Virus record (IMG/VR): IMGVR_UViG_3300010392_000705 | Span: 1 to 22,282 of that record | Direction: 5' to 3' (one strand) | DNA from: a virus | Length of the DNA: 22,282 nt | Part shown: positions 4,127-21,304 of the stretch, piece after piece | How the letters are laid out: each line of letters begins with the position of its first letter | Numbering within the stretch: position 1 is the stretch's first letter | The notes under the pieces: model-generated | The model's input: only the letters and a program-made list of their open reading frames with translations | Database searches by the model: none | Told to the model about the DNA's origin: nothing | Translations under genes and position numbers: made by a program

Positions 4127-7100
4127 TCAGGCCGCCTCTTGCATATCTCCCATGTTGGGTCCGTACTCGTAATCCACATCGAAGTGCAACTGGGGATTCC
4201 AGCCCACCTTCTCGAACGGCAGGTTCTCCATAATCTCCCGCACCAGAGGCACCCAATAGTCGAACTCGTCTTCCTTCACATAGGCAGTCAGGGCGTCATG
4301 GGTCATGGCAAAGAACCGACAACCATCGGGCTCTCCATAATTCTGGTGGAACTCAGCCAGTGCCCAGCAACTCATGTCTGAAAGGGTAGCCTGAATCGGT
4401 GAGTTTATCGACTGTCTTTCAGCCTTGGACCGAGTGGCATTATCCCGAGCATTGATCAGCGGCAGGTGACGTACCCTACCCAGTGGTGACCTGATGTGGC
4501 CATGGTGGTGAGCGAACTTCTTGAAGTTTACGTGCCAGTCCGGGAGGCCAGCATACAGGGCGAAGAAGGCGTCCCGCTGTTTCTCGGCTTCCTCCAAGGT
4601 CAGCACCACCCCATAGGTGGCAAAGGCGTAGGCTTGGTAGCCGGCTGCCGACATGCCATAGATCAGTCCGAAGTTACCGGCTTTCCCACCTTGCCGGATT
4701 TTCTTGATCAGCTTTTGCTGCTCCTCGTCATCTGACTTCTTCATGGCCAGCGCATCAGTAATATCAATGCCGTTCAACTGCGCTCCCGTTCTCAGGTGGA
4801 GGTCAATACCCTGTCGGTAGGAATCCAGCATGTTCGGCTCATTGGCCACGCAAGCCGTGATCCGTAGCTCACCTTGAGAGTAGTCCCAGTTCACGACTAT
4901 GTACCCGGGCGGGGCTATGTACCCTCGCCGTAATTCTTGGGCCCAGTTCGTGTGCTTTGGTACGGTCTGGAAGGCCGGGTCTTTAAACGCCAGCCGGCCA
5001 GTCAGGGTTCCAGAATCATCCGAGTCCCCATAGGCTCCCTTGTAGAGGATCGCCGTTGGGTGCAAGCGACCGTCTGCCCTCAGGTGACTCATGAAACCAG
5101 TGACATAGGTGCCCAGTGTTTTCTTGGCCTTACTGTAGTTGCTCAGAGCTTGGATGAAGGGGCCAGCATCTTGGTGGTCAATAAATTGCTTCAGGTGATC
5201 CATGGCCGTAGAGGCATGTTCATGGCCCGGATTATCCTTGGGTGCCTTGGCCGTGTATTCCAGTGGCTTCAGGTTCAGTCCCCTCGGGCTAAACAGGAAG
5301 TCTGTCAGTATGCGGGATCGGGTCAGACTCAGGTTGTCCTTGTACTTCAACTGCAAGCGCCGGGGTAGCATCTTCATCGCCCGGTCGTTGAGGAACTTCA
5401 GTTCTTTCTCCAACTCGGTCTGCAGCTTCATGTAGTGGTCAACGTCTACCAGCACCCCTTCCCGTTCCATGGCCTCAAAAGCTACCGAAGCTGGGTGCAG
5501 GATGGTCTGGTAAAACCGTTTCAACTTGGGGTCTTTGGCCAGTTCCTTTAGCTGAGCATTCGACACCCTCAAAGTGGCATCAGTGTCACCCCCGGCGTAC
5601 AGGAGCAGAGGTTCATCCGGCACCAAGTCCATGCGGCCTTTGTCATACTTCTTGTTGAATGAATTATGGGAGGCAATACCTTCCGCCACGAAAGTATGGC
5701 AATCCGTTTCAAGGCTCACTACCTCAATAGGTCCAATAGGGGTTACCGATTCCACGTAAACCTTCTCGGTGCCTGATGGTATGCACTTACCCTCGTACCC
5801 ATACTTACTCAATAGTCGCACAGGTCTTAGTAACTGCAGCATCTGTAATGTTGGCGCTCCGGAGTGCTTACTGGTGTGAACTCCATCACTGTTCTTCTGT
5901 CGAGAATAAAATCCTGAAAGGCCTATGTTCGCCATACCCTTGCAGTATTTTTTCCAGACAAGTCCGGGGGCTTGGCTCAAACCAGATACCAACCCCATAC
6001 CACCAGAAGACAAGTACCCCTCCCCGTCATACAGGCCTGATAAGTACCCTGCCTCCCATGTATGTAGGGGCTCCCGGGGATCAATCACGGACATAGCCCT
6101 AACACCGGGTTTCAGTTCATAAGCCCGTACCCACTGGAAAGGACCATTGTTCTTGTATCGGTGAGCCAAGAATCCGTGATCATCACTACAACGGATAGTG
6201 ACCCCGTTGGAGAACTCTACCTCTACCCCGGATTTCGTTAGGCGCTTGGTAGACACTGCTCTGGCTCGTCGCATACGGCGGCGTTCGCCCTGAGTAGTGA
6301 TTTCTTCATCAAACCCAAGAAGCCCATCCCCCGACTTAACATCCCCAATAGGGACCCATCGGAGGTCATCAGTGCAAACCAGTGTCTCAGGGGCTACACA
6401 GTCATCATACCCGCCCATGCTGGTATACACCTTGGCATGGGTGTTCAGGCTGTTGCTCCGGTTCTCATCCAACAGGGAGCCAACAAGGGTGGTGTCCATT
6501 TTGAAGGCTGTGCTTAGCAACCCCCACTTCTCACGAATCCACACGGCGTCATATTTGTAGTTCGCGCCCCGGAGCCGGATGTTCGGTGAGTTCAGGAGCC
6601 AGTTTATCTGGTCGTGCAAAAGGCTCCCTTTCTTCGGTTGGTCATCATGCCCTTGGAATCGGATAACATCAGCCATCCCTTCCCGGTAGGTCAGGCTAAT
6701 CGAGACAATGAAGGTTTCGGGGTTGTAGGGGTCGAGGGTCAGGGTTTCCAAGTCCACTGATATGACTGGTTTCTTGCCTTCCTCGTCAATCATCTTTTCC
6801 AGCAGGTATACGGCTTCGGTGTAGTCATCAACGTACCGGTAGTCACCAACATCAGGTTCTTCCTTACCGGTTACCGCCGTTCGGCAGGCCAAGGCCGTGT
6901 CCAGCTTCAGGTTCACCCACATACCATAGTCAATGTTCATGATGCCGGCGTCGAAGGTGACAAAGTACTTCACCCCCTTGTGTTCAATCCCGGTCCCACG
7001 GAGTGAGCTTATGGTTCGATTCTTGGGCACAACCTTGGCATCAGCCAGAGCCTTTATCGCTTTTGAGCCCATCGCCAACACAACATCCCCCGGACTTGCC

Positions 7101-7222
7101 GGGGGTAATGTGGTCTGACTGTCTACCACCACCTTGTGTGGGGGTGGCCCCCACCCGGATACGGTGGGGCCTATGGCTTTTTTGAGTTCTTGTCCACTGG
7201 TAGAAGTCCAGAGTATCAACAT
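4127..7222 (-). CDS. polA: family A DNA polymerase with UDG-like N-terminus, 3'-5' exonuclease and intein
   Basis: 1031 residues, or 785 after removal of the intein. Residues ~1-125 resemble a degenerate uracil-DNA glycosylase fold (GDVVLAMGSKAIKAL, then SSLRGTG), an arrangement known from the SPO1 polymerase. The DnaQ-like 3'-5' exonuclease shows Exo I (D157, E159), Exo II (NYKYD, D225) and Exo III (Y542, D546). The polymerase domain shows motif A (D780, DYSQGELR), motif B (R843, K847, F851, Y855) and motif C (H975, D976). Motif A has Gly where Ile is usual. F851 corresponds to E. coli Phe762, a state linked with virulent phages. There is no 5'-3' exonuclease domain. The intein is residues 275-520. 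The ATG at 7222 overlaps the previous stop (TGATG); a GTG at 7240 in frame is less likely. It replicates phage DNA. Confidence 0.95.
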   Translation of the reverse strand: MLILWTSTSGQELKKAIGPTVSGWGPPPHKVVVDSQTTLPPASPGDVVLAMGSKAIKALADAKVVPKNRTISSLRGTGIEHKGVKYFVTFDAGIMNIDYGMWVNLKLDTALACRTAVTGKEEPDVGDYRYVDDYTEAVYLLEKMIDEEGKKPVISVDLETLTLDPYNPETFIVSISLTYREGMADVIRFQGHDDQPKKGSLLHDQINWLLNSPNIRLRGANYKYDAVWIREKWGLLSTAFKMDTTLVGSLLDENRSNSLNTHAKVYTSMGGYDDCVAPETLVCTDDLRWVPIGDVKSGDGLLGFDEEITTQGERRRMRRARAVSTKRLTKSGVEVEFSNGVTIRCSDDHGFLAHRYKNNGPFQWVRAYELKPGVRAMSVIDPREPLHTWEAGYLSGLYDGEGYLSSGGMGLVSGLSQAPGLVWKKYCKGMANIGLSGFYSRQKNSDGVHTSKHSGAPTLQMLQLLRPVRLLSKYGYEGKCIPSGTEKVYVESVTPIGPIEVVSLETDCHTFVAEGIASHNSFNKKYDKGRMDLVPDEPLLLYAGGDTDATLRVSNAQLKELAKDPKLKRFYQTILHPASVAFEAMEREGVLVDVDHYMKLQTELEKELKFLNDRAMKMLPRRLQLKYKDNLSLTRSRILTDFLFSPRGLNLKPLEYTAKAPKDNPGHEHASTAMDHLKQFIDHQDAGPFIQALSNYSKAKKTLGTYVTGFMSHLRADGRLHPTAILYKGAYGDSDDSGTLTGRLAFKDPAFQTVPKHTNWAQELRRGYIAPPGYIVVNWDYSQGELRITACVANEPNMLDSYRQGIDLHLRTGAQLNGIDITDALAMKKSDDEEQQKLIKKIRQGGKAGNFGLIYGMSAAGYQAYAFATYGVVLTLEEAEKQRDAFFALYAGLPDWHVNFKKFAHHHGHIRSPLGRVRHLPLINARDNATRSKAERQSINSPIQATLSDMSCWALAEFHQNYGEPDGCRFFAMTHDALTAYVKEDEFDYWVPLVREIMENLPFEKVGWNPQLHFDVDYEYGPNMGDMQEAA
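5663..6400 (-). mobile_element. intein in the DNA polymerase, with one LAGLIDADG-like motif
   Basis: This in-frame insertion of 246 residues interrupts the polymerase between Exo II and Exo III. It begins with Cys (CVAPETLVCTDD, block A) and has a block B variant CSDDHGFL, where the usual T-x-x-H is S-x-x-H. A single LAGLIDADG-like motif, GYLSGLYDGEGYLS, sits in the middle. It ends with block F/G, HTFVAEGIASHN, followed by Ser as the first C-extein residue. These are the residues needed for class 1 splicing, so splicing is expected. Only one LAGLIDADG motif is visible, so the homing endonuclease is either reduced or works as a dimer. Confidence 0.93.
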
Positions 7223-7638
7223 CAGGCGGCTTCCTCCCACTCCTCGCCGTTCAGGGTAAAGCTGGCAACGACTGCAGGCTTGGTTACTTTGTAGAGTTCA
7301 TCAATGCTGCCAGCGTCTTCCCACTTGAAGTCCAGCCCCAGCTTAGACTTTGACATTAATGTCAGAGCCAGCCATGAGCCGGAGACTGGGTGGTGGGTGC
7401 TATCCACCATCATCACCAAATCAGAACTGGACTCGGAATCCTTTACGGCCAAGTCCAGAATCAAGGTGGTAGAGGCAGTCCCAAAATCCAGTGTCTTGGT
7501 CACTTTGAATCTGAACTCAATGTTAGACCATGGCAGGGTGAAAGTCTGCTCTCCTCGCACCTTGGATTCCTTCGTCAGGATCATGTGCATGTTCAGGGCG
7601 TCACAAATAGGGTAGACCCGGGTTCTCATCTGGCTCAT
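7222..7638 (-). CDS. hypothetical protein upstream of the DNA polymerase
   Basis: 138 residues, family not recognised. It looks like a mixed beta-rich globular protein, with alternating hydrophobic stretches (TLPWSNIEFRFKV, TLILDLAVK, PAVVASFTL) and an acidic end (GEEWEEAA). The start overlaps the previous stop (ATGA) behind GGAGG, and the stop overlaps the polymerase ATG (TGATG), so it belongs to a tightly coupled operon with the polymerase. A replication-accessory role would fit that position but nothing in the sequence proves it. The gene carries an in-frame copy of the dispersed palindrome, read as Leu-Thr-Leu-Met-Ser. Confidence 0.8.
   Translation of the reverse strand: MSQMRTRVYPICDALNMHMILTKESKVRGEQTFTLPWSNIEFRFKVTKTLDFGTASTTLILDLAVKDSESSSDLVMMVDSTHHPVSGSWLALTLMSKSKLGLDFKWEDAGSIDELYKVTKPAVVASFTLNGEEWEEAA
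7351..7364. repeat. dispersed palindrome copy 2, inside a coding region
   Basis: Exact TGACATTAATGTCA within the gene upstream of the polymerase. The flanks match copy 1 on one side, so 17 bases (TGACATTAATGTCAGAG on the plus strand) are shared. The reading phase differs from the copies at stop codons. Confidence 0.9.
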
Positions 7639-8688: not shown

Positions 8689-8717
8689 AGTATCTAACAG
8701 TTCAGGGCGTTTGTCAA
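8689..8717 (-). promoter_or_regulatory. sigma70-type promoter, cassette copy 2
   Basis: Minus-strand TTGACA (8712-8717), a 17-bp spacer and GATACT (8689-8694), followed by an AATTCACGGAGGG leader. It drives the operon that leads to the DNA polymerase. The stop codon of the upstream phosphatase gene lies inside the -35 hexamer. There is no palindrome at this copy. Confidence 0.87.
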
Positions 8718-9394
8718 AGGTTTTTGGCTTTGTGAACCTTGTTGCCGACCCCAGCTTTGCGGTCCCCATGGATGCAGTGACTCACTCTCATGGGGCTCAG
8801 GCGTTCATCCCCTTGTGGAGACTTACTGTAGTTTGCAGGCGGCATGGACGGGTGCTTCGCCGCTTTCTTTGCTACCTTGGTGCCTTGGGCCTTCACGATA
8901 CCGAAATTCTTGTGCAGCCAGTCCACCTGTACCGCAGACTCTACCGCTTTCTGACAGTAGTTCTCCCGAACCCAGTTGATCGAGTCCTTCTCCCCGGACA
9001 GGTGAGTCACCAGAGCTGCAAGGAAGGTACCGGTTCGTCCATGGCCCCCGATGCACCCGGCATGGACTTTCTTGCCGGCGTACATTTGCTCTGCAGTCCA
9101 CTCGATCAATTTTCGGAACTGGGTCACCGATTTCGGGGCCTGCATATCGGTGATGGGGAAGAACACAAATTCTCCCGGTAGCCATGGCATAGACTGGGGC
9201 ACCAACACGTAACCACGGTCAAAGGCAATCAGTACATCCATGCCTTCCGGTGGGGTGTTGGTGCAGGAGCCGCCATGGATAAACAACTCTTTGCCTTCTT
9301 TGTCGATGATCTTGAGAACCGGGTGGCTCTCGTAGCAACGCTTCGGCTGAGTCCAGCCATTGGATGCTTGGTTACTGTAATACGATGCGCCCAT
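8714..9394 (-). CDS. protein tyrosine/dual-specificity phosphatase-like protein 1
   Basis: 226 residues. The signature H-A-G-C-I-G-G-H-G-R-T-G gives a Cys-X5-Arg P-loop with nucleophile C114 and phosphate-binding R120. ITDMQAP around D83 is a candidate general-acid loop at the right distance. This is the hallmark of the Cys-based PTP/DSP superfamily, which hydrolyses phospho-Tyr, phospho-Ser/Thr or, in some branches, other phosphoesters. Residues after ~165 form a basic tail. There is no signal peptide, so it should act in the host cytoplasm. The ATG follows GGGGA and lies 12 bases after the 338-residue gene, so the two are co-transcribed. The TGA stop lies within the -35 box of the next promoter. 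A second phosphatase is encoded 1.1 kb upstream. The substrate is unknown. Confidence 0.85.
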   Translation of the reverse strand: MGASYYSNQASNGWTQPKRCYESHPVLKIIDKEGKELFIHGGSCTNTPPEGMDVLIAFDRGYVLVPQSMPWLPGEFVFFPITDMQAPKSVTQFRKLIEWTAEQMYAGKKVHAGCIGGHGRTGTFLAALVTHLSGEKDSINWVRENYCQKAVESAVQVDWLHKNFGIVKAQGTKVAKKAAKHPSMPPANYSKSPQGDERLSPMRVSHCIHGDRKAGVGNKVHKAKNL

Positions 9395-9405
9395 GTCATT
9401 TCCCC

Positions 9406-10422
9406 TTATGCAGCGATCAGGTCTTTCCGTTTGAGTTTCTTCACCTTCACATGTGGAGTCACATAGAAGAATTCTTCTTTCTCTTTCTTGGCTTTCTTCT
9501 CCGCGACTTCCGGAGTGTTGTTCATCTTAATGGCCCAAGCATGGTAGTTACCATGGGAGCCAAGTTTCATCACCTTCTCCCAGTCGATATGGGTTTCCCA
9601 ATCGGCTGACAGCTTGGCGTCCCGCAACCACTCATAAGTCTTCAGGGCCGGGATCGAAATCTTGTTAAAGAACTTCATGCCTGCATTGTGGCTATAGAGC
9701 AGTTGAGGAATCTGGCCAGACCGCTGAACATCAAGCATCTGCACCAGTTCTTGGGAGTACATGTTGTAGAGCATCCCCTTGTTGAAGATGGGCCCGTTGT
9801 TGTGGCATAGCGTCCAACCGGTGTCCACCATCATTTCCGGGGTGTAAGCCGCACTTACGTACCGGTTCAGGGTCCGAGCTACTTCACCCCATGCAGGGCC
9901 ACCATAGCCCCCCGAGAACTTGCCCTTGAAGAACACGTACTCCATGAAATCCGTGTAAACCCCGAGGTTCACGTTCGGAGCACTGGACTTCAGCTTGCTC
10001 ACCGCACCACCTGAACCACTGCCTTGGATACTGTTCAGGAAATTCCAGCACTCAATGGGGTAGTTAGCCACTTGTATCGCCCCCGGGTTTTGGCAGTGCC
10101 GGGTCTCCCGAGTGCAGATCATCAGCAGGTAGTAGAACAACCGCTCCATGATCTGAGAGCATTGCTGGGTGTAACCCAAGGCCACGTCCAGATGCTCTTG
10201 TGGCAACGGCTGGTCTTTGTGGTACATCAAGTTCAGTTCCGCCCATGCGTGGTTCATCATGTAGAACCTGAGGGCTTCTTCTTCCGGTTCAGCACTAGAA
10301 CCCAGTGCGTTCACCCGTTGTTTCATGGTGGCCACACAGTCTTTAAGACTGGCATTCGTGGCATAGGTATTGGGGATCAGGAATGGCTTTTTGCTTATTT
10401 CAGCTAGGGTATTGGCTACCAC
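9406..10422 (-). CDS. conserved-looking phage protein of unknown function
   Basis: 338 residues from the preferred GTG start at 10422, seven bases behind GGAGGG (10430-10435). An ATG at 10437 would place that ribosome site inside the gene, so I reject it. No known domain is recognised. The protein is mostly helical in the first half. The centre holds a motif-like stretch (GYGGPAWGEVARTLNR, then TGWTLCHNNGPIFNKGM), which has the look of a conserved core with Cys, His and Asn. The C-terminus is very basic (VAEKKAKKEKEEFF, KVKKLKRKD), possibly for nucleic-acid contact. It is the first gene after the promoter at 10457-10485 and is followed by phosphatase 1 after 12 bases, so the two may act together. 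Confidence 0.82.
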   Translation of the reverse strand: MVANTLAEISKKPFLIPNTYATNASLKDCVATMKQRVNALGSSAEPEEEALRFYMMNHAWAELNLMYHKDQPLPQEHLDVALGYTQQCSQIMERLFYYLLMICTRETRHCQNPGAIQVANYPIECWNFLNSIQGSGSGGAVSKLKSSAPNVNLGVYTDFMEYVFFKGKFSGGYGGPAWGEVARTLNRYVSAAYTPEMMVDTGWTLCHNNGPIFNKGMLYNMYSQELVQMLDVQRSGQIPQLLYSHNAGMKFFNKISIPALKTYEWLRDAKLSADWETHIDWEKVMKLGSHGNYHAWAIKMNNTPEVAEKKAKKEKEEFFYVTPHVKVKKLKRKDLIAA

Positions 10423-10429
10423 TTGCTTT

Positions 10430-10435
10430 CCCTCC
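10430..10435 (-). promoter_or_regulatory. ribosome site that decides the GTG start at 10422
   Basis: GGAGGG followed by AAAGCAA and GTG. In the other cassette leaders GGAGGG lies 4-9 bases before the start codon, which supports GTG 10422 over the ATG at 10437 that would overlap this site. Confidence 0.75.
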
Positions 10436-10456
10436 ATGAGTTTTTATTACCCTGTT

Positions 10457-10485
10457 AGTATCGCCCACCCGGCTACGTTTGTCAA
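10457..10485 (-). promoter_or_regulatory. sigma70-type promoter, cassette copy 3
   Basis: Minus-strand TTGACA (10480-10485), a 17-bp spacer and GATACT (10457-10462), then an A-rich leader and GGAGGG. It drives the 338-residue gene and phosphatase 1. The palindrome at 10504-10517 ends 18 bp upstream of the -35 box. Confidence 0.87.
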
Positions 10486-10503
10486 ATAATAACCGGGGGC
10501 TTT

Positions 10504-10517
10504 TGACATTAATGTCA
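10504..10517. repeat. dispersed palindrome copy 3
   Basis: Exact TGACATTAATGTCA. On the minus strand its first three bases are the stop codon of phosphatase 2. It lies between that gene and the promoter at 10457-10485, the same arrangement as copies 1 and 4. Confidence 0.9.
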
Positions 10518-11027
10518 CTTGATAAAGGGCAACACCCGGGACAAGCGGATCAGGAAGGCCATCTTCTTGAGCGGCAATTCCTTCAGGAAGTCTTCTTGCT
10601 GCTTGGTCTCGATAGCGTGTCCCTTGTAGTTGTCCCGAACATACTTGATAGCCTCAACCGCCAGCGCGGCTTGGTTGGGCATCCAGTACTGAGACATGAA
10701 GCTCAGGAGGGTCATAGCCCCCATGAACAGACCGGTGCGGCCAATACCGCCCATGCAGCCCACGTACAGGCTACCGTCTTTCTTCAGGTAATAACGAGCT
10801 TTCTCCAAGCCCTTCATCATGTCTTCCGGCTCCGGCACCGAGAAGTCCCGGGTCGGAATGGCAACATCGTGGGGGAGGTCCATCAGTTCTTCGGCCATGC
10901 AGAAGCCCGGTAGGTCTTTGGGTCGATTACGGTACGGGCCGCCGTAGATCATGCCCCGGACCTTACCGTCCGTGTACCGGATTCCCTTTAGGTCGCTTGT
11001 GCCGGGTGTTGCATCGAATCTTGCCAT
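10515..11027 (-). CDS. protein tyrosine/dual-specificity phosphatase-like protein 2
   Basis: 170 residues. The P-loop reads V-G-C-M-G-G-I-G-R-T-G with nucleophile C91 and R97, and TRDFSVP around D61 is a good general-acid loop. The Cys-X5-Arg layout and following helix match phosphatase 1 (both C-x-G-G-x-G-R-T-G), so the two are probably diverged paralogues, but this one lacks the long basic tail. It should act in the cytoplasm as no signal peptide is seen. The ATG at 11027 has AAGGA upstream, and the preceding zinc-protein gene overlaps its first 65 bases, implying coupled translation. Its stop codon lies inside palindrome copy 3. The substrate is not evident. Confidence 0.85.
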   Translation of the reverse strand: MARFDATPGTSDLKGIRYTDGKVRGMIYGGPYRNRPKDLPGFCMAEELMDLPHDVAIPTRDFSVPEPEDMMKGLEKARYYLKKDGSLYVGCMGGIGRTGLFMGAMTLLSFMSQYWMPNQAALAVEAIKYVRDNYKGHAIETKQQEDFLKELPLKKMAFLIRLSRVLPFIK

Positions 11028-11416: not shown

Positions 11417-11725
11417 TTACTTGGCTGCCGCTTTACTTTTCGTATAGAGATCGCCACGCAGTACCTCAATTTCTTTCGGGGCGTCCACAACCACCCGGGC
11501 CAGTGTGTCAGAGCCACGAAGGCCGGCGCTGATTCTCACGTCTTTGTTCCAGTCAAACTTATCCAACAGCGTGGCTTCACCATCAGTTATGACATACTTG
11601 TAGTCCATGGCCGGGGTCAGGACTGTGATTTCAAATTTGGTCGGATTGACCACCTTGGTCACTCTGATCTTGGTGTCATTGATGTAAAAATCCCGACCTT
11701 CGGGTACGCCTATTACGAGAGCCAT
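11417..11725 (-). CDS. CsrA/RsmN-like RNA-binding protein with internal insertion
   Basis: 102 residues. The C-terminal segment VVVDAPKEIEVLRGDLYTK (residues 78-96) closely follows the CsrA pattern of APKE...V.R..IY, with R90 at the place of the key RNA-binding Arg44. The N-terminus MALVIGVPEGRDFYINDTKI fits CsrA strands 1-2 (L-x-x-x-x-x-G-x-x-x-x-I-x-D). About 40 extra residues (~28-68) separate the halves. RsmN of Pseudomonas is also a CsrA relative with an insertion, though placed differently. CsrA proteins bind GGA motifs in mRNA leaders and repress or stabilise them, so this could retarget host or phage mRNA. The ATG follows GGAGG; the gene lies one base after the Zn-ribbon gene stop. 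The family call is by eye and moderate. Confidence 0.65.
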   Translation of the reverse strand: MALVIGVPEGRDFYINDTKIRVTKVVNPTKFEITVLTPAMDYKYVITDGEATLLDKFDWNKDVRISAGLRGSDTLARVVVDAPKEIEVLRGDLYTKSKAAAK

Positions 11726-12193: not shown

Positions 12194-14314
12194 TTAGGAG
12201 AAGATTTGAAAAGCAAGTTTCTCCTCCTTGACTGGGTTCACCGGCTCAGCAATGGTCTTCCCATGGGCCTTCATCACGGCCTTCAGGGTATTGTACGTCT
12301 TGGTGTCACCCACCACGTTCTTGATGAATTCTTCATCCGGTATGCCGTTTCCTGAGAGCAGGTCTTTCAGTGTGCCTGCGGCCTTTAGGAGCTTCACGTT
12401 CTCCGGGACTTTAAGGGTACTGACTTGCACCGTACCCGGGAGCAGGGCCACCACTTCTCTGCCGGCTTCTCCCAGCAAGGTCATGTGGTGGTTGATCCAG
12501 TCCCGTTCCTCTTTGGTCGGGTTCTTACCCAACATCTGAATCATCAACCTGTCTTCGGCATCCAGATTTGAAAAGGGGCCATCAAACTCGACATACAGGG
12601 TGCCAGTCACCTTCTCACCGAGGGCCCGCAACTCCTTCACAGGGTCTTCATTGAAGGTTCCTGTGCCAAGCCTCAGGCAGTAGTCCTTGGTCACCAGCAG
12701 TAGCCCTTCAGGTGGGTGGGCGTCCCCGCAGAGCAGTGACCCTGAGCCTTCTGTCAGAAGGTGAGCAGCATGGTAATTAACTTCTCCGGGTATCACTTCC
12801 TTGGCCCCAATCCAGACATTACCGGTGGAGCCATCAATGGTGATCAGGTCACCTGACTGCACCTGTGTTCCGTCCCCCATGATCAGGGTTCCGTTGACAA
12901 TGGCCAGTTCAGTGCACCCAACAACACACACCTTGTCCATGCCCCGGGCAACAACTGCCGCATGGCTGGTCAGGCCCCCGGTCTGGGTCAATATACCAAC
13001 AGAGAGGTTCATAGCAACAATGTCATCAGGGGTGGTTTCTTTCCCAACCAGAATAGCCGGGTGACCCTCCTCCGAATTGATCTGCTTCACCTGATATTCC
13101 GTGAAGGCCACTCTGCCGGTAACAACCCCACCACCAGCGGCAATACCGGTAGCCTGTGGCTTTCCTGCAGAGTCCTTGTTGATCGCGGGGGTCTTCAAAG
13201 CCAAGTACTGGGCCACAGTCACCCGGGTCAGAGCTTCCTCGGTGGTCAATACTCCCTCGCTCACCATGTCAGAGGCAATCCGGAAGGCCGCCTTGGCAGA
13301 CCGTTTCCCGTTCCGACATTGGAGGATGTAGAGCTTGCCGGCTTGCACCGTGAACTCCACGTCTTGCATGTCCTTGTAGTACTCCTCCAACCGCATGGTG
13401 TGATCACAAAGTTCTTGGTAGGCCTCGGGGTTCCACTTGTTCATCTGGTCGAGCGGGTCCGGGGTCCGGATGCCGGCCACTACGTCCTCACCCTGAGCGT
13501 TCACAAGGAACTCCCCTGTTATTACAGGGTCACCATTGCTTGGGTTCCGGGAGAACAACACGCCAGTACAGGACTTGTCATTGAGGTTGCCGAATACCAT
13601 GGACTGGATGTTGACCGCAGTGCCCCACTCATCGGGGTAGCCGTGCATTTCCCGGTAGGCTTTGGCCCGGTCACAGTTCCATGACTCGAACACCGCCGTG
13701 ATCGCCCATTCCAACTGCTCAATAAAGGTGTCCGGGAATTCCGTGCTATGGGTCTGATAGACGATCTTGTAGCGCCCTATCAGGGTGTCTAGCTGGGCCA
13801 CGGAAAGCTCATGATCATGGGTGACCTCGGCTGTTTTCTTCACTTCCCCCAAGGCACCTTCAAATTCTTCTTTAGGGATACCAAACACCACGTCACCCAT
13901 CATTTGCATGAGGCGGCGATAGGAATCCAGTGCGGCCCGTTTACCAATGCGTTCCGCCCACTCAGGCAGTGACTCCGAAGTCAAGCCCACGTTCAATATG
14001 GTGTCCATCATACCCGGCATGGATACCCGGGCACCCGAGCGAACACTAACCAGTGGGAAGTAGCCAAAGTGCTCCTTCAGGTCATTCAAGTGAATGTAGA
14101 CTTCGTTCTTCAGCAGGTCTGTGACAACATCGTCACCCTTACCAGAGTGCAGGTATTCATTGCAGACTTCCGTGGTGATCGTAAAGCCCGGGGGGATCGG
14201 TAGGTTCAGGTTGGCCATCTCTGCAAGGTTGGCACCTTTGCCACCCAGCAGTTCACGCATTTCTGCGTTGCCTTCTGTTCCGAGCCCGGGGCCAAATGTG
14301 TAGGTTTTCTTCAT
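12194..14314 (-). CDS. PPDK-like dikinase lacking the PEP/pyruvate-binding domain
   Basis: 706 residues against ~875 for pyruvate phosphate dikinase. The ATP-grasp part is strongly PPDK-like: LGGKGANLAEM, VRSGARVSMPGMMDTILNVG (~91-110), GVLFSRNPSNG, GEFLVNAQGEDVVAG and LQCRNGKRS. The phosphohistidine domain is intact: GGLTSHAAVVARGMDKVCV with H451 as catalytic His and T449 at the site that PPDK regulatory proteins phosphorylate. From ~510 on, the TIM-barrel landmarks (RTEHMFF, GHRGCRL, CGEHGG) are missing, replaced by ~195 unrecognised residues. It should take phosphate from ATP onto His but is unlikely to make PEP; rifampicin phosphotransferase and glucan water dikinase show such domains can serve other acceptors. 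ATG 14314 is behind GGAGGG in the promoter leader, and the gene is promoter-proximal. Confidence 0.9.
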   Translation of the reverse strand: MKKTYTFGPGLGTEGNAEMRELLGGKGANLAEMANLNLPIPPGFTITTEVCNEYLHSGKGDDVVTDLLKNEVYIHLNDLKEHFGYFPLVSVRSGARVSMPGMMDTILNVGLTSESLPEWAERIGKRAALDSYRRLMQMMGDVVFGIPKEEFEGALGEVKKTAEVTHDHELSVAQLDTLIGRYKIVYQTHSTEFPDTFIEQLEWAITAVFESWNCDRAKAYREMHGYPDEWGTAVNIQSMVFGNLNDKSCTGVLFSRNPSNGDPVITGEFLVNAQGEDVVAGIRTPDPLDQMNKWNPEAYQELCDHTMRLEEYYKDMQDVEFTVQAGKLYILQCRNGKRSAKAAFRIASDMVSEGVLTTEEALTRVTVAQYLALKTPAINKDSAGKPQATGIAAGGGVVTGRVAFTEYQVKQINSEEGHPAILVGKETTPDDIVAMNLSVGILTQTGGLTSHAAVVARGMDKVCVVGCTELAIVNGTLIMGDGTQVQSGDLITIDGSTGNVWIGAKEVIPGEVNYHAAHLLTEGSGSLLCGDAHPPEGLLLVTKDYCLRLGTGTFNEDPVKELRALGEKVTGTLYVEFDGPFSNLDAEDRLMIQMLGKNPTKEERDWINHHMTLLGEAGREVVALLPGTVQVSTLKVPENVKLLKAAGTLKDLLSGNGIPDEEFIKNVVGDTKTYNTLKAVMKAHGKTIAEPVNPVKEEKLAFQIFS

Positions 14315-14345
14315 CTTACCCTCCGTGAATTTTTGGTGCAGTTCT

Positions 14346-14374
14346 AGTATCTCGCACCCCGGTACGTTTGTCAA
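14346..14374 (-). promoter_or_regulatory. sigma70-type promoter, cassette copy 4
   Basis: Minus-strand TTGACA (14369-14374), a 17-bp spacer and GATACT (14346-14351), followed by AATTCACGGAGGG. It drives the dikinase gene. The stop codon of the BRCT gene lies inside the -35 hexamer, as at copy 2. Confidence 0.87.
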
Positions 14375-14616
14375 ACAGTTTCTTTCAGCTTGGCAAGGAA
14401 TTCCTCAGGGGTTATGAGAACAACACCATTGGCCTCAGCCTTTCTGATCTTACTGGTGTTGCCGTGGCGGCCAGTGTCCCCAACCACCAAAATCTGGGTT
14501 CGTTCGGTGATTGACTTCTCTACGGTGTGGCCATGGTCTTGGGCAACAGCTTCAAGGACAGCCCGGGTAACGTGCTCCCCATCCAATCTGAAAGTGCCAG
14601 TGAATGCAATGTTCAT
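14371..14616 (-). CDS. stand-alone BRCT-domain protein
   Basis: 81 residues making one BRCT domain: MNIAFTGTFRLDG at the start, TERTQILVVGDTGRHGN in the middle, KIRKAEANGVVLITPEEFL near the end. This is the pattern of the BRCT repeat at the C-terminus of NAD-dependent DNA ligase, which binds DNA ends or phosphopeptides. No ligase domain is attached. The ATG at 14616 sits behind GGAGG; an in-frame reading from 14679 would extend into the 55-residue gene. The start codon overlaps the preceding stop (ATGA). Possible roles are binding a host ligase or a phospho-protein; neither is shown by the sequence. The stop overlaps the -35 box of the next promoter. Confidence 0.8.
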   Translation of the reverse strand: MNIAFTGTFRLDGEHVTRAVLEAVAQDHGHTVEKSITERTQILVVGDTGRHGNTSKIRKAEANGVVLITPEEFLAKLKETV

Positions 14617-14780
14617 TGGGCGTTCCTCCGTGAGATTTCTTCCACCAGCAAGCTCTTGTTGGTGAAGGCAGAAGGGCACACGTTTCTACGCATGTGCTTG
14701 GGGGTCTTCTCAATCAGGCGACCTAACCGAGCGTACTCGGCTACCAGTTCTTCTCTTGTCCAATTCTTTAGGTTTTTCAT
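14613..14780 (-). CDS. 55-residue hypothetical protein
   Basis: A short gene starting MKNLKNWTREELVAEYARLG and ending SRRNAQ. It is basic and helical with a single Cys, and I do not recognise it. It is supported by a strong AAGGAGG site before the ATG at 14780 and by an ATGA overlap of its stop with the BRCT start. It lies 23 bases after the 66-residue gene in the operon of promoter 15261-15289. Confidence 0.72.
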   Translation of the reverse strand: MKNLKNWTREELVAEYARLGRLIEKTPKHMRRNVCPSAFTNKSLLVEEISRRNAQ

Positions 14781-18266: not shown

Positions 18267-19826
18267 TCATAAGTCAACATAGAGCTTGTTGGTCGTAACT
18301 ACCACACTACGACCTTCGGTTAAAACTTCCAAACTTTTTACCGGCCCGAGTACTGCCGGCTCCCCCGGGAATAGAGCAATCGCCATGTAATAGGTTGGCT
18401 CCATTACCAAAGACTGTAGCGCAAGCTGAGCATTTTGCGAGAGCGCCAGACGAGAAAGTTCTGGTGCAAGGTCGATCACCCCCGTACTCAGTTTGTGCGT
18501 TACTCCCATGGAAACCCGGGACACCTTGGGCTCCACGACTACCGACTCACAGGACAAAGAGTGCTCCTGCACTACTGCAGCCGATGAGACATTTACCGAT
18601 ACAACCAGATTTTCAGTTTCAAGAATCTGCTGAGCACCCTGCCCCAAAGTCAGATCATTGACGGTCGGTGTGACATTAATGTCACTGGCGTCAAGTTCAT
18701 GGGTCTGAGTCAGTGTTAGCCCAACAAACTGCGGTTCTACCTGAAGGCTCCCGGCCTCCAACAGGTGGTCTACCTGCAGGGTCACCACCGACAGGTCCGG
18801 CTCCATGACCAAGCCTTCCGCTGTGACTTGATGCTCCTGCACCATCACCGCGCCAGAAGTGGTCGGGACCATCCGTATGGAGGCTGGCACTATGGTATCC
18901 GTGACTATCTCCACGAGAGTCGGAGTGCTTACCATGGGTTGCATCTGCAGACTGGCAACAGCGCCCTCGTGGGTCTGTCCAAGGGCAAGGTCGGTCACTG
19001 TCGGGGTTACCTGCAGTGACTCGCTTTCCAGTGCCGAGGTGTGAACCACGGATGCGGTGGATACCTCGGGCTCCATAGCCATGGATCGGGTATCAAGTAC
19101 CTGTGTCTGGCTAAGGGTCAAACCCGAGACTTCCGGGACCACCTCAAGCGGTGCCGGCTGCATACTTCCCTGCTGCTCCACCTCGACACCAGACAGGGTG
19201 CCTTCCATGGCCAGAGAGTCTGTTGCCAGCCCATGGGTCTGCACTGCCAAAGCGGTGGATACGGTAGGGGTAACCTGAAGGCTGCTGGCATCAAGAGCCT
19301 GAGTTTGGTTCAAGGTAAGGCCAGATACCTTGGCTTCCTGTACCAGTGATTCCGACACCATGCTGTGGTTCTGGGTAACCGCCACCCCAGATACCGTTGG
19401 GGTCATCTGCAGGGATTCTGACTCCACCTCGTGCGTGTTGGTCGCACTAATACCGGTGAGTGTCGGGGTCAGCTGAACCGACTGGGTATCAAGGCTATGA
19501 GCCTGTGACGCAGCCGCCTCAGACAGGGTTGGAGTAACCTGAATACTATCGGTTTCCAAAGCATGGGTCTGGCTCAGGCTCACACCGCTCACGGTGCCTT
19601 CCATCACCAAGCTATTGGTATTCAGGTTGGCCGTAGCCGAGATAGTGGTGAATGACTCCCACGCAGACCAAGCTGAGACGTTGGTTCCGTCATCCTCCTG
19701 AACCCGGAATTCATAGTCAGTCAGTTGGGTCAGCCCGGACAGGTTGTAAAACTCGTCCGTAATGTTCTCTACAAGAACCTCGTTCCCAACGTCACCAAGC
19801 TCCCGCCACTCAAGATTATAGGCCAT
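18267..19826 (-). CDS. repeat-rich tail fibre-like protein beginning with half an FN3 domain
   Basis: 519 residues. The first ~62 residues (YNLEWRELGDV, LTQLTDYEFRV, SAWSAWESFTT) are the C-terminal two thirds of a fibronectin type III domain whose first strands lie at the end of the preceding gene. Then come 18 tandem units of mostly 22 residues (two are 24) of the type S-L-x-M-x-P-T-V-S-G-x-x-L-x-Q-T-H-x-L, plus a partial unit. A short C-terminal domain ends TTNKLYVDL. Such regular beta repeats suit an elongated trimeric fibre or beta-solenoid. The ATG at 19826 overlaps the preceding stop (TAATG). An in-frame extension to 19841 has no value as a start. It may belong with the LamG gene as one product. 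An in-frame copy of the palindrome lies in unit 14/15. Confidence 0.82.
   Translation of the reverse strand: MAYNLEWRELGDVGNEVLVENITDEFYNLSGLTQLTDYEFRVQEDDGTNVSAWSAWESFTTISATANLNTNSLVMEGTVSGVSLSQTHALETDSIQVTPTLSEAAASQAHSLDTQSVQLTPTLTGISATNTHEVESESLQMTPTVSGVAVTQNHSMVSESLVQEAKVSGLTLNQTQALDASSLQVTPTVSTALAVQTHGLATDSLAMEGTLSGVEVEQQGSMQPAPLEVVPEVSGLTLSQTQVLDTRSMAMEPEVSTASVVHTSALESESLQVTPTVTDLALGQTHEGAVASLQMQPMVSTPTLVEIVTDTIVPASIRMVPTTSGAVMVQEHQVTAEGLVMEPDLSVVTLQVDHLLEAGSLQVEPQFVGLTLTQTHELDASDINVTPTVNDLTLGQGAQQILETENLVVSVNVSSAAVVQEHSLSCESVVVEPKVSRVSMGVTHKLSTGVIDLAPELSRLALSQNAQLALQSLVMEPTYYMAIALFPGEPAVLGPVKSLEVLTEGRSVVVTTNKLYVDL
18414..19613 (-). repeat. tandem 22-residue (66-bp) coding repeats, 18 units
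   Basis: Units begin near SLVMEGTVSG and continue to residue ~471 of the fibre. Period 22 residues in 16 units and 24 in two (units 11 and 15). Key pattern: aliphatic-x-aliphatic at 2-4, Pro at 6, Val/Leu-Ser at 8-9, Gln-Thr-His near 15-17, acidic at the end. DNA copies are well diverged, so this is an old expansion rather than fresh slippage. Confidence 0.88.
18671..18684. repeat. dispersed palindrome copy 5, inside the repeat fibre gene
   Basis: Exact TGACATTAATGTCA, read as Ser-Asp-Ile-Asn-Val-Thr. It replaces the usual residues at the start of a repeat unit (DINVTPTV in place of SLQVTPTV), and uses a third codon phase. Confidence 0.9.
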
Positions 19827-21304
19827 TATCCTTGCTCCCAAGTCAGAGTCACAGAAGTCGGTTGCAGGTTCTCAAACCCGAGATTTACGGGGGTATTCAC
19901 GCCAACCGGGATAAGCCAACCAGTGTCATTGTTTGCAATCAAATCTAGGTGGATGGATTCAAGTTGTTCTTCAGTCAGAACACCCTTACCCATCTCGGCA
20001 TAGTAAATCTGACCCTGCACGTTCCGGTTGAGGCTTCCCCGGTTACCAAGTGACAAAATACGGTTGGTGTTGTTAATCCGACCCAAAACATCTGACGAAC
20101 CATAGTTTGAACCAGCAATCGACCGGTATTGCCCGTCAGTCATGACACGGATGCGCGACTCAGAGCCAAGTTCATCCATGTCAATCTGGATAACAAGGGT
20201 GTGCGGATCAGTGTCTCCGGGGTTGTAGTAAAAAGAGGCCGTGTGCCCCGTACCCCCAGATTCGTTATCAAAACGAACAACCCACAGGTCGTTTTCTTCC
20301 TTAACAATCGAAATGTCCGTATTGCCGCTGGAAGTACCAATGGCGAATAGGCGCATACCATTTGGATGCCCGACTATGTTAGCCAGCACCATAGCGAACC
20401 AGAAGGTTTTTTCCCCATCGAGTTCCGCACCAAGGTTACCGTTTGCAACGATATTATCGAGTCTGGCTATACCGCTATTGGAAACACTCGGACTATTAGT
20501 GAAATCAAGCCCTTTGCCGGAGGCAATAGAAGTCCACTCCAACGCATTGTTATAGTCCAACGTCAGATCATTACCATTACCGGTATCATCGGCAGTGGTG
20601 GTTGGGGCAGTGCCGCTCGATGCCTCACTTAGCAGGAACCGACAAAGGCTTGTAGCGTTACTTGCGTTTACCGAGCGAGCCCTTCCAGCCCCGACGCCAG
20701 TCGTGAGGCTGAATACAGCGACTTCAACCTGAGAGTTACGACCAGTCTGCAAGAAGAATCCGATTGCTCCGGGGTCACTTATAGAAAATTCACCCCAACT
20801 ATTAGAACCATTAGGTTCTTCTGACCCTTCAGGCCACGCCTTGAAATATAAGGTGGTGCTGTCGGTTTCAACCCCACCTGCGCCACGAAGTCTTACCCAA
20901 AACCATCCAGTGCCTTGGTATTGCCCTACATTCACTGCGCGTGACGTTTCCGCACCGGCTTGAAATATTCGGCCTTGCTCTTTATCTGGGTCCGGGCTCA
21001 TACCATAGACAAGCCCTGTTACATCACTCTCCATTCGAGCGGCCACATTAGCGTAACCGTCGAGATCACGAACCAAGGCGAGAAGTTCAAAATCTGCCCT
21101 GCCTGCATCCGCATCAACAGGGTCATACTTGACCATACCGTAATTGGCAGGGTTACCAGTTCCGTTGATCCGTAGGCATTTCCCATGCCCGTTGGCGGTA
21201 TTGTCTACTATGGTGATAGACCTCCCGGTACCAAACAAAACAGACCAATCTGCAGGGGACTGCCCCACAGTTTCATCAGAAAAATCGGTGAAATACCCCG
21301 CCAT
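19826..21304 (-). CDS. two-LamG lectin-like tail/adhesion protein
   Basis: 492 residues. Two concanavalin/LamG-type jelly-roll regions are apparent. The first (~1-210) starts FTDFSDETVGQSPADWSVLF. The second (~215-455) runs from CRFLLSE through GKGLDFTNSPSVS, EKTFWFAMVLANI and GQIYYAEMGKGVLTEEQLES, the classical LamG ending. These domains bind sugars, so it is a candidate receptor-binding or fibre protein. The last ~25 residues (TPVNLGFENLQPTSVTLTW) are the first strands of a fibronectin type III domain that is completed in the next gene, one frame away. The ATG at 21304 follows GGAGATGGGTC. The stop TAA overlaps the next ATG. Confidence 0.82.
   Translation of the reverse strand: MAGYFTDFSDETVGQSPADWSVLFGTGRSITIVDNTANGHGKCLRINGTGNPANYGMVKYDPVDADAGRADFELLALVRDLDGYANVAARMESDVTGLVYGMSPDPDKEQGRIFQAGAETSRAVNVGQYQGTGWFWVRLRGAGGVETDSTTLYFKAWPEGSEEPNGSNSWGEFSISDPGAIGFFLQTGRNSQVEVAVFSLTTGVGAGRARSVNASNATSLCRFLLSEASSGTAPTTTADDTGNGNDLTLDYNNALEWTSIASGKGLDFTNSPSVSNSGIARLDNIVANGNLGAELDGEKTFWFAMVLANIVGHPNGMRLFAIGTSSGNTDISIVKEENDLWVVRFDNESGGTGHTASFYYNPGDTDPHTLVIQIDMDELGSESRIRVMTDGQYRSIAGSNYGSSDVLGRINNTNRILSLGNRGSLNRNVQGQIYYAEMGKGVLTEEQLESIHLDLIANNDTGWLIPVGVNTPVNLGFENLQPTSVTLTWEQG

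Follow-up and report, generated by a model that had tools for sequence, protein, structure and literature searches.

Pyruvate phosphate dikinase (PPDK; EC 2.7.9.1; structure 1KBL, family model TIGR01828) joins an ATP-grasp domain and a phosphohistidine domain, with the catalytic histidine in the motif GGxTSHAA, to a PEP/pyruvate barrel. VadK (Rv1127c) of Mycobacterium tuberculosis is a characterised PPDK without the barrel, which autophosphorylates its catalytic histidine using ATP (PMC13400623). In rifampin phosphotransferase (RPH), another dikinase, a different acceptor domain replaces the PEP barrel, the histidine domain is last in the chain, and there are no PTP partners. Phage genes called PPDK are present in vibriophages J26, LV6, and SIO-2, Stenotrophomonas phages DLP3 and DLP5, and Rhizobium and Rhodobacter phages; several papers use the name (PMC12038007, PMC7326821, PMC10141217), and some of them credit the gene with PEP metabolism (PMC12038007, PMC10141217).

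We analyzed a 22,282-nucleotide stretch of viral DNA (IMG/VR record IMGVR_UViG_3300010392_000705; the window) that codes for a member of this phage family, PHROG 18609, within the same gene module, consisting of the dikinase, two PTP-like phosphatases, and a protein that we call U. The dikinase has both PPDK catalytic domains and the histidine motif, with clear homology over residues 1 to 510, but it is without the PEP/pyruvate barrel and the PEP-site motifs and falls below the PPDK equivalog cut-off. Like VadK, it is PPDK-derived and has lost the barrel while keeping the catalytic histidine; however, VadK (~50 kDa) stops after the histidine domain, whereas the phage protein adds a tail of ~200 residues, scores below the cut-off of NF004531, and lies within the U/PTP module. 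Its similarity to RPH is weak, although the replacement of the PEP barrel by another acceptor domain is the logic that we propose for U.

A preliminary description of this DNA considered such a phage dikinase to be undescribed, a view at odds with the presence of the gene in at least 39 GenBank phage records, its PHROG family, the papers naming it PPDK, and the VadK precedent. The gene is thus public and named, and its architecture has a precedent in VadK; what is new here is the module context. We found no description of the module or of a U fusion in a search that covered the open literature, with most subscription journals outside its scope.

The dikinase core

The dikinase gene and its parts are as follows.

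12194 to 14314, minus strand: PPDK-like dikinase (dk), 706 aa, a clean ORF with its ATG at 14314; PHROG 18609
14319 to 14324, minus strand: ribosome-binding site of the dikinase gene, GGAGGG, shortly upstream of the ATG
13235 to 14314, minus strand: ATP-grasp (nucleotide-binding) domain, about residues 1 to 360, with conserved K26, R92, E320, Q332, and R334
12800 to 13162, minus strand: phosphohistidine (swivelling) domain, about residues 385 to 505, from Pfam, PDB matches, and Foldseek
12962 to 12964, minus strand: codon for H451, the predicted phosphohistidine
12968 to 12970, minus strand: codon for T449
12197 to 12799, minus strand: C-terminal tail, residues 506 to 706 (201 residues), variable and occupying the position of the PEP/pyruvate barrel

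The Pfam families PPDK_N (PF01326; E 2.3e-54) and PEP-utilizers (PF00391; E 5.9e-21) both match the dikinase, PEP-utilizers_C does not, and nothing in Pfam matches past about residue 500. The other models end in the same region: the NCBIfam PPDK equivalog TIGR01828 covers only residues 2 to 521 (604 bits versus a cut-off of 843), PPDKs in the PDB align only to residues 2 to 510, and the PHROG 18609 profile matches residues 2 to 512 (E 7.1e-168). NF004531 (compare PRK05878), taken as the nearest available model for short PPDKs, gives 439 bits, under its 456-bit cut-off. H451 and T449, together with R92, E320, Q332, and R334 of the ATP-grasp domain, are invariant in 51/51 relatives, and the phosphohistidine domain superposes on 2fm4 with a TMt of 0.84 and an rmsd of 1.9. 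Residues 1 to 507 are, as judged from their sequence, a complete PPDK ATP-grasp and phosphohistidine unit.

The Pfam matches and the invariant residues bear out the preliminary assignment of PPDK-like domains with H451 and T449. T449 had also been called a regulatory site, and here the invariance stands while the word regulatory adds nothing: the PDRP regulator (PF03618) is encoded in none of 26 phage records, which rules out regulation by a phage-encoded PDRP, and a PDRP could still come from the host. HPr (PF00381), the phosphorelay partner of PTS enzyme I-type proteins, is likewise over cut-off in 0/26 phage records; phage-encoded HPr is therefore ruled out as the phosphate acceptor, and host HPr is a possible one. 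Two small genes lie near the dikinase gene. Directly upstream is a small stand-alone BRCT-domain protein (14371 to 14679, minus strand) that resembles the C terminus of NAD-dependent DNA ligase, and between the dikinase and the first phosphatase is a 102-aa protein (11417 to 11725, minus strand) that weakly resembles CsrA (E 5e-4).

The missing barrel and the C-terminal tail

Relatives of the dikinase were taken from the best 80 IMG/VR loci and 56 GenBank phage records; the two locus scans gave the best 80 each, and distant relatives are undersampled. They split into two size classes. Those of about 850 to 970 aa are ordinary three-domain bacterial PPDKs, and those of about 570 to 770 aa are the phage family, with a 500-residue core and a tail of roughly 110 to 240 residues. 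The five PEP-site motifs of the barrel are found in 0/66 phage proteins versus 7 to 11 of the 11 bacterial three-domain PPDKs, and in a tree of the core (FastTree) the phage dikinases group together as a single clade (support 0.999). When 27 related phage records were searched whole, none encoded the barrel family PF02896, for which 14/14 control genomes were positive, ruling out a barrel encoded elsewhere in the phage. The sequences thus indicate that the barrel is missing in the window's protein and in every true phage relative carrying the module, in agreement with the earlier statement that the TIM-barrel landmarks are absent.

Four unverified 'phage' contigs in GenBank (OR846604, OR846859, MT835511, and MT839457) encode three-domain PPDKs of 885 to 900 aa with the barrel motifs, which suggests that they are bacterial sequence within the phage collection. 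Because these four checked 'phage' dikinase records that do not have U carry three-domain PPDKs, the barrel and U appear to replace each other. The one exception seen to the pairing of dikinase and U is Bacillus phage G, in which gp139, a PPDK-like protein of 366 codons, has no U or PTP neighbors and adjoins an FtsZ-like gene; this is a separate case of phage PPDK truncation.

In place of the barrel, the preliminary description noted ~195 unrecognised residues, and the tail does consist of 201 residues that match no family. It is fast-evolving, with a mean column entropy of 2.9 bits versus 1.6 to 1.8 for the catalytic domains and almost no conserved residues past the linker; PF02896 matches 0/55 tails at E<=1, and a known domain is ruled out since no Pfam or PDB sequence match is consistent. 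In a profile comparison of the tail with the bacterial barrel, only the first ~33 linker residues align. A full PEP/pyruvate barrel has eight strands. The AlphaFold2 model of the dikinase (51 sequences; mean pLDDT 88, most of the tail at 70 to 90, and a poor region around 527 to 554) gives no full barrel; it has four clear strands in the tail (545 to 549, 573 to 577, 621 to 624, and 640 to 645) that alternate with helices. Foldseek aligns this model to PPDK (1kbl) across 811 columns, and the dikinase sequence profile aligns weakly up to PPDK residue 728. The strands, the Foldseek alignment, the profile reach, and the continuous linker are consistent with an origin of the tail by decay from the first half of the barrel, but the sequence signal ends at the linker. 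The tail is not a recognisable new fusion, and it may derive by erosion from one half of the former barrel.

These structural features bear on whether the gene could encode a genuine PPDK of auxiliary metabolic function, in which the tail forms a minimal PEP/pyruvate site, as published for vibriophage J26. For J26 ORF98 there is an AlphaFold model with PEP docking, and that model too has four strands in the tail region, which were named a TIM barrel (PMC12038007); the Foldseek alignment of more than 800 columns and the four main strands seen here fit the same reading. Nonetheless, we consider it very improbable. The PEP-site motifs and PF02896 matches are missing and the tail has hardly any conserved residues past the linker, as described above, and the J26 evidence consists of docking, not of PPDK activity (PMC12038007). 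PEP is almost certainly not made by this family, and the auxiliary metabolic function claimed for a gene repeatedly published as a PEP-making carbon-metabolism gene, which our analysis contradicts, needs correction.

A four-gene module with protein U

What the phages have instead is a strictly conserved four-gene module with the new-fold protein U at its center, which was not part of the preliminary description and is the most informative part of the locus. Downstream of the dikinase, the window carries PTP1, U, and PTP2 in this order (8714 to 11027).

10515 to 11027, minus strand: PTP1, PTP/DSP-like phosphatase with the CX5R loop GCMGGIGRTG
9406 to 10437, minus strand: U, 343-aa all-alpha protein, PHROG 20946, with conserved E111/R113/H114, YGG..W, D205, and HNNGP.FNK
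8714 to 9394, minus strand: PTP2, PTP/DSP-like phosphatase with the CX5R loop HAGCIGGHGRTG; its family is often mislabelled thymidylate synthase

The same order of dikinase, PTP, U, and PTP occurs in Rhodobacter, Rhizobium, Stenotrophomonas, and Vibrio phages; the module carriers are siphoviruses of roughly 80 to 118 kb. We took a census of 170 loci, which form 122 clusters at 95% identity. Among the matches listed, the dikinase, PTP1, U, and PTP2 are all present in 84 clusters, the dikinase and U with one PTP found in 5, and a dikinase-U fusion in 2, so that the dikinase and U co-occur in 91/91 phage clusters where both could be seen. Also among the matches listed, no cluster with at least 5 kb known downstream has the dikinase without U, and no cluster with at least 4.5 kb known upstream has U without the dikinase. 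Across 50,697 GenBank phage records, the 39 that carry the dikinase are also the 39 that carry U, apart from one short fragment of phage VHS1 for each gene; the two are therefore inherited together. The CX5R loop is intact in nearly all PTPs of the module. Because these loops are present and the thymidylate synthase family PF00303 is absent from the genomes, the label 'thymidylate synthase' is wrong for PHROG 17568, DLP3_141, and SIO-2 VPEG_00063, which are PTP/DSP-like phosphatases.

U matches nothing consistently in Pfam, ruling out a known Pfam domain, and its all-alpha model (pLDDT 90) has no fold match in the PDB. A structure search of a viral library returned four strong matches, all unnamed proteins that look like members of U's own family. 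Among 84,980 cellular genomes, U was found on only seven contigs, mostly from metagenome assemblies, and U is nearly exclusive to phages. The invariant residues of the family are E111, R113, D205, H212, N213, K220, D236, and Q238; these polar positions look enzyme-like, as in an active site.

In two phages (loci L071 and L082), the dikinase itself continues from the phosphohistidine domain into a U domain, which occupies the place of the barrel (E 8.6e-24 and 2.3e-20). The fused U keeps Y103, E111, R113, H114, YGG, W183, D205, H212, N213, and K220 and is without parts of the stand-alone U at both ends; neither record has a second U. The two fused dikinases branch outside the other phage dikinases, with weak support (0.375; FastTree), and most module phages retain the separate tail domain. 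Together with the gene association, the two related fusions show a functional link between dikinase and U, and the fusions single out one testable partner for the phosphoryl group.

Proposed phosphotransfer and other readings of the module

Neither the protein nor any of the 27 related phage records contains a PEP-forming domain, so most likely a different acceptor receives the phosphoryl group, as had been proposed before. In our view the dikinase probably serves as the half of a phage phosphotransfer system that is charged from ATP, and not as a pyruvate phosphate dikinase. Its intact catalytic residues suggest that, just as PPDK and VadK do, it would bind ATP in the ATP-grasp domain and phosphorylate H451 on the swivelling domain; the phosphohistidine arm, in the absence of the barrel, would then swing to another acceptor site. 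That site would be provided by U or lie on it, with U acting in trans as a separate protein in most phages and in cis in the two fusions. U may receive the phosphate directly, or it may instead serve as a scaffold or a regulator or act as an enzyme further along the pathway. The phosphate could end up on U itself, at one of its residues, on a polymer, or on a small molecule with a hydroxyl group. The two PTPs, with their intact CX5R loops, would take the phosphate off again or process a phosphorylated intermediate. Since phosphoesters are the usual PTP substrates, the product of the dikinase is not necessarily one that they act on. The fuller proposal, a phage-exclusive phosphotransfer from a barrel-less dikinase to a new-fold enzyme U that replaces the PEP/pyruvate domain, balanced by two PTPs and using a substrate new for dikinases, is a tentative one, with the odds somewhat against it.

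None of the module's proteins (dikinase, U, PTPs) is on the protein list from DLP3 virion mass spectrometry, and so they probably act inside the infected cell. This location, and a pairing of kinase and phosphatase that is typical of reversible protein phosphorylation, would also suit a regulatory kinase similar to VadK, which is itself barrel-less, autophosphorylates, and binds metabolic enzymes (PMC13400623); host or phage proteins would be phosphorylated to reprogram the host, with U as the substrate adaptor and the PTPs reversing the reaction. We regard this as unlikely. The phage protein scores 604 bits with the PPDK model versus 439 with the VadK-type model, which gives no sign of descent from VadK; phosphoesters are the substrates of classical PTPs, and the conserved residues of U resemble an active site more than an adaptor.

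The module adjoins a DNA polymerase gene, and some module phages have sugar-modification genes and glycosyltransferases near it, raising the question as to whether it takes part in DNA hypermodification, the dikinase activating a base or sugar hydroxyl, U modifying it, and the PTPs clearing phosphate intermediates. DNA of the module phage DLP3 is resistant to 15/15 restriction enzymes (PMC7326821), but this is one phage and its resistance may have another cause. PF00303 is found in 0/26 records, which rules out modification of the dUMP hydroxymethylase (hydroxymethyl-dU) type, and only 7/26 have the aminotransferase family PF01041, so that its sugar pathway cannot be essential. Hypermodification is thus a distinctly unlikely role, and we favor the ATP-charging of a phosphotransfer system as the function of the dikinase. 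A search of an anti-phage defence library gave no match.

Two other proteins of the window are of note. DNA polymerase A (4127 to 7240, minus strand) has 1037 aa versus about 730 to 800 aa in related phages, with an insertion that starts CVAPETLVC, ends VAEGIASHNS, and contains LSGLYDGEGYLS; read by eye only, it looks like an intein. The protein encoded at 18267 to 19841 (minus strand) begins with a fibronectin-III-like part, followed by numerous short degenerate repeats (SLxMEPxVSGVxLxQTH...), and is likely structural.
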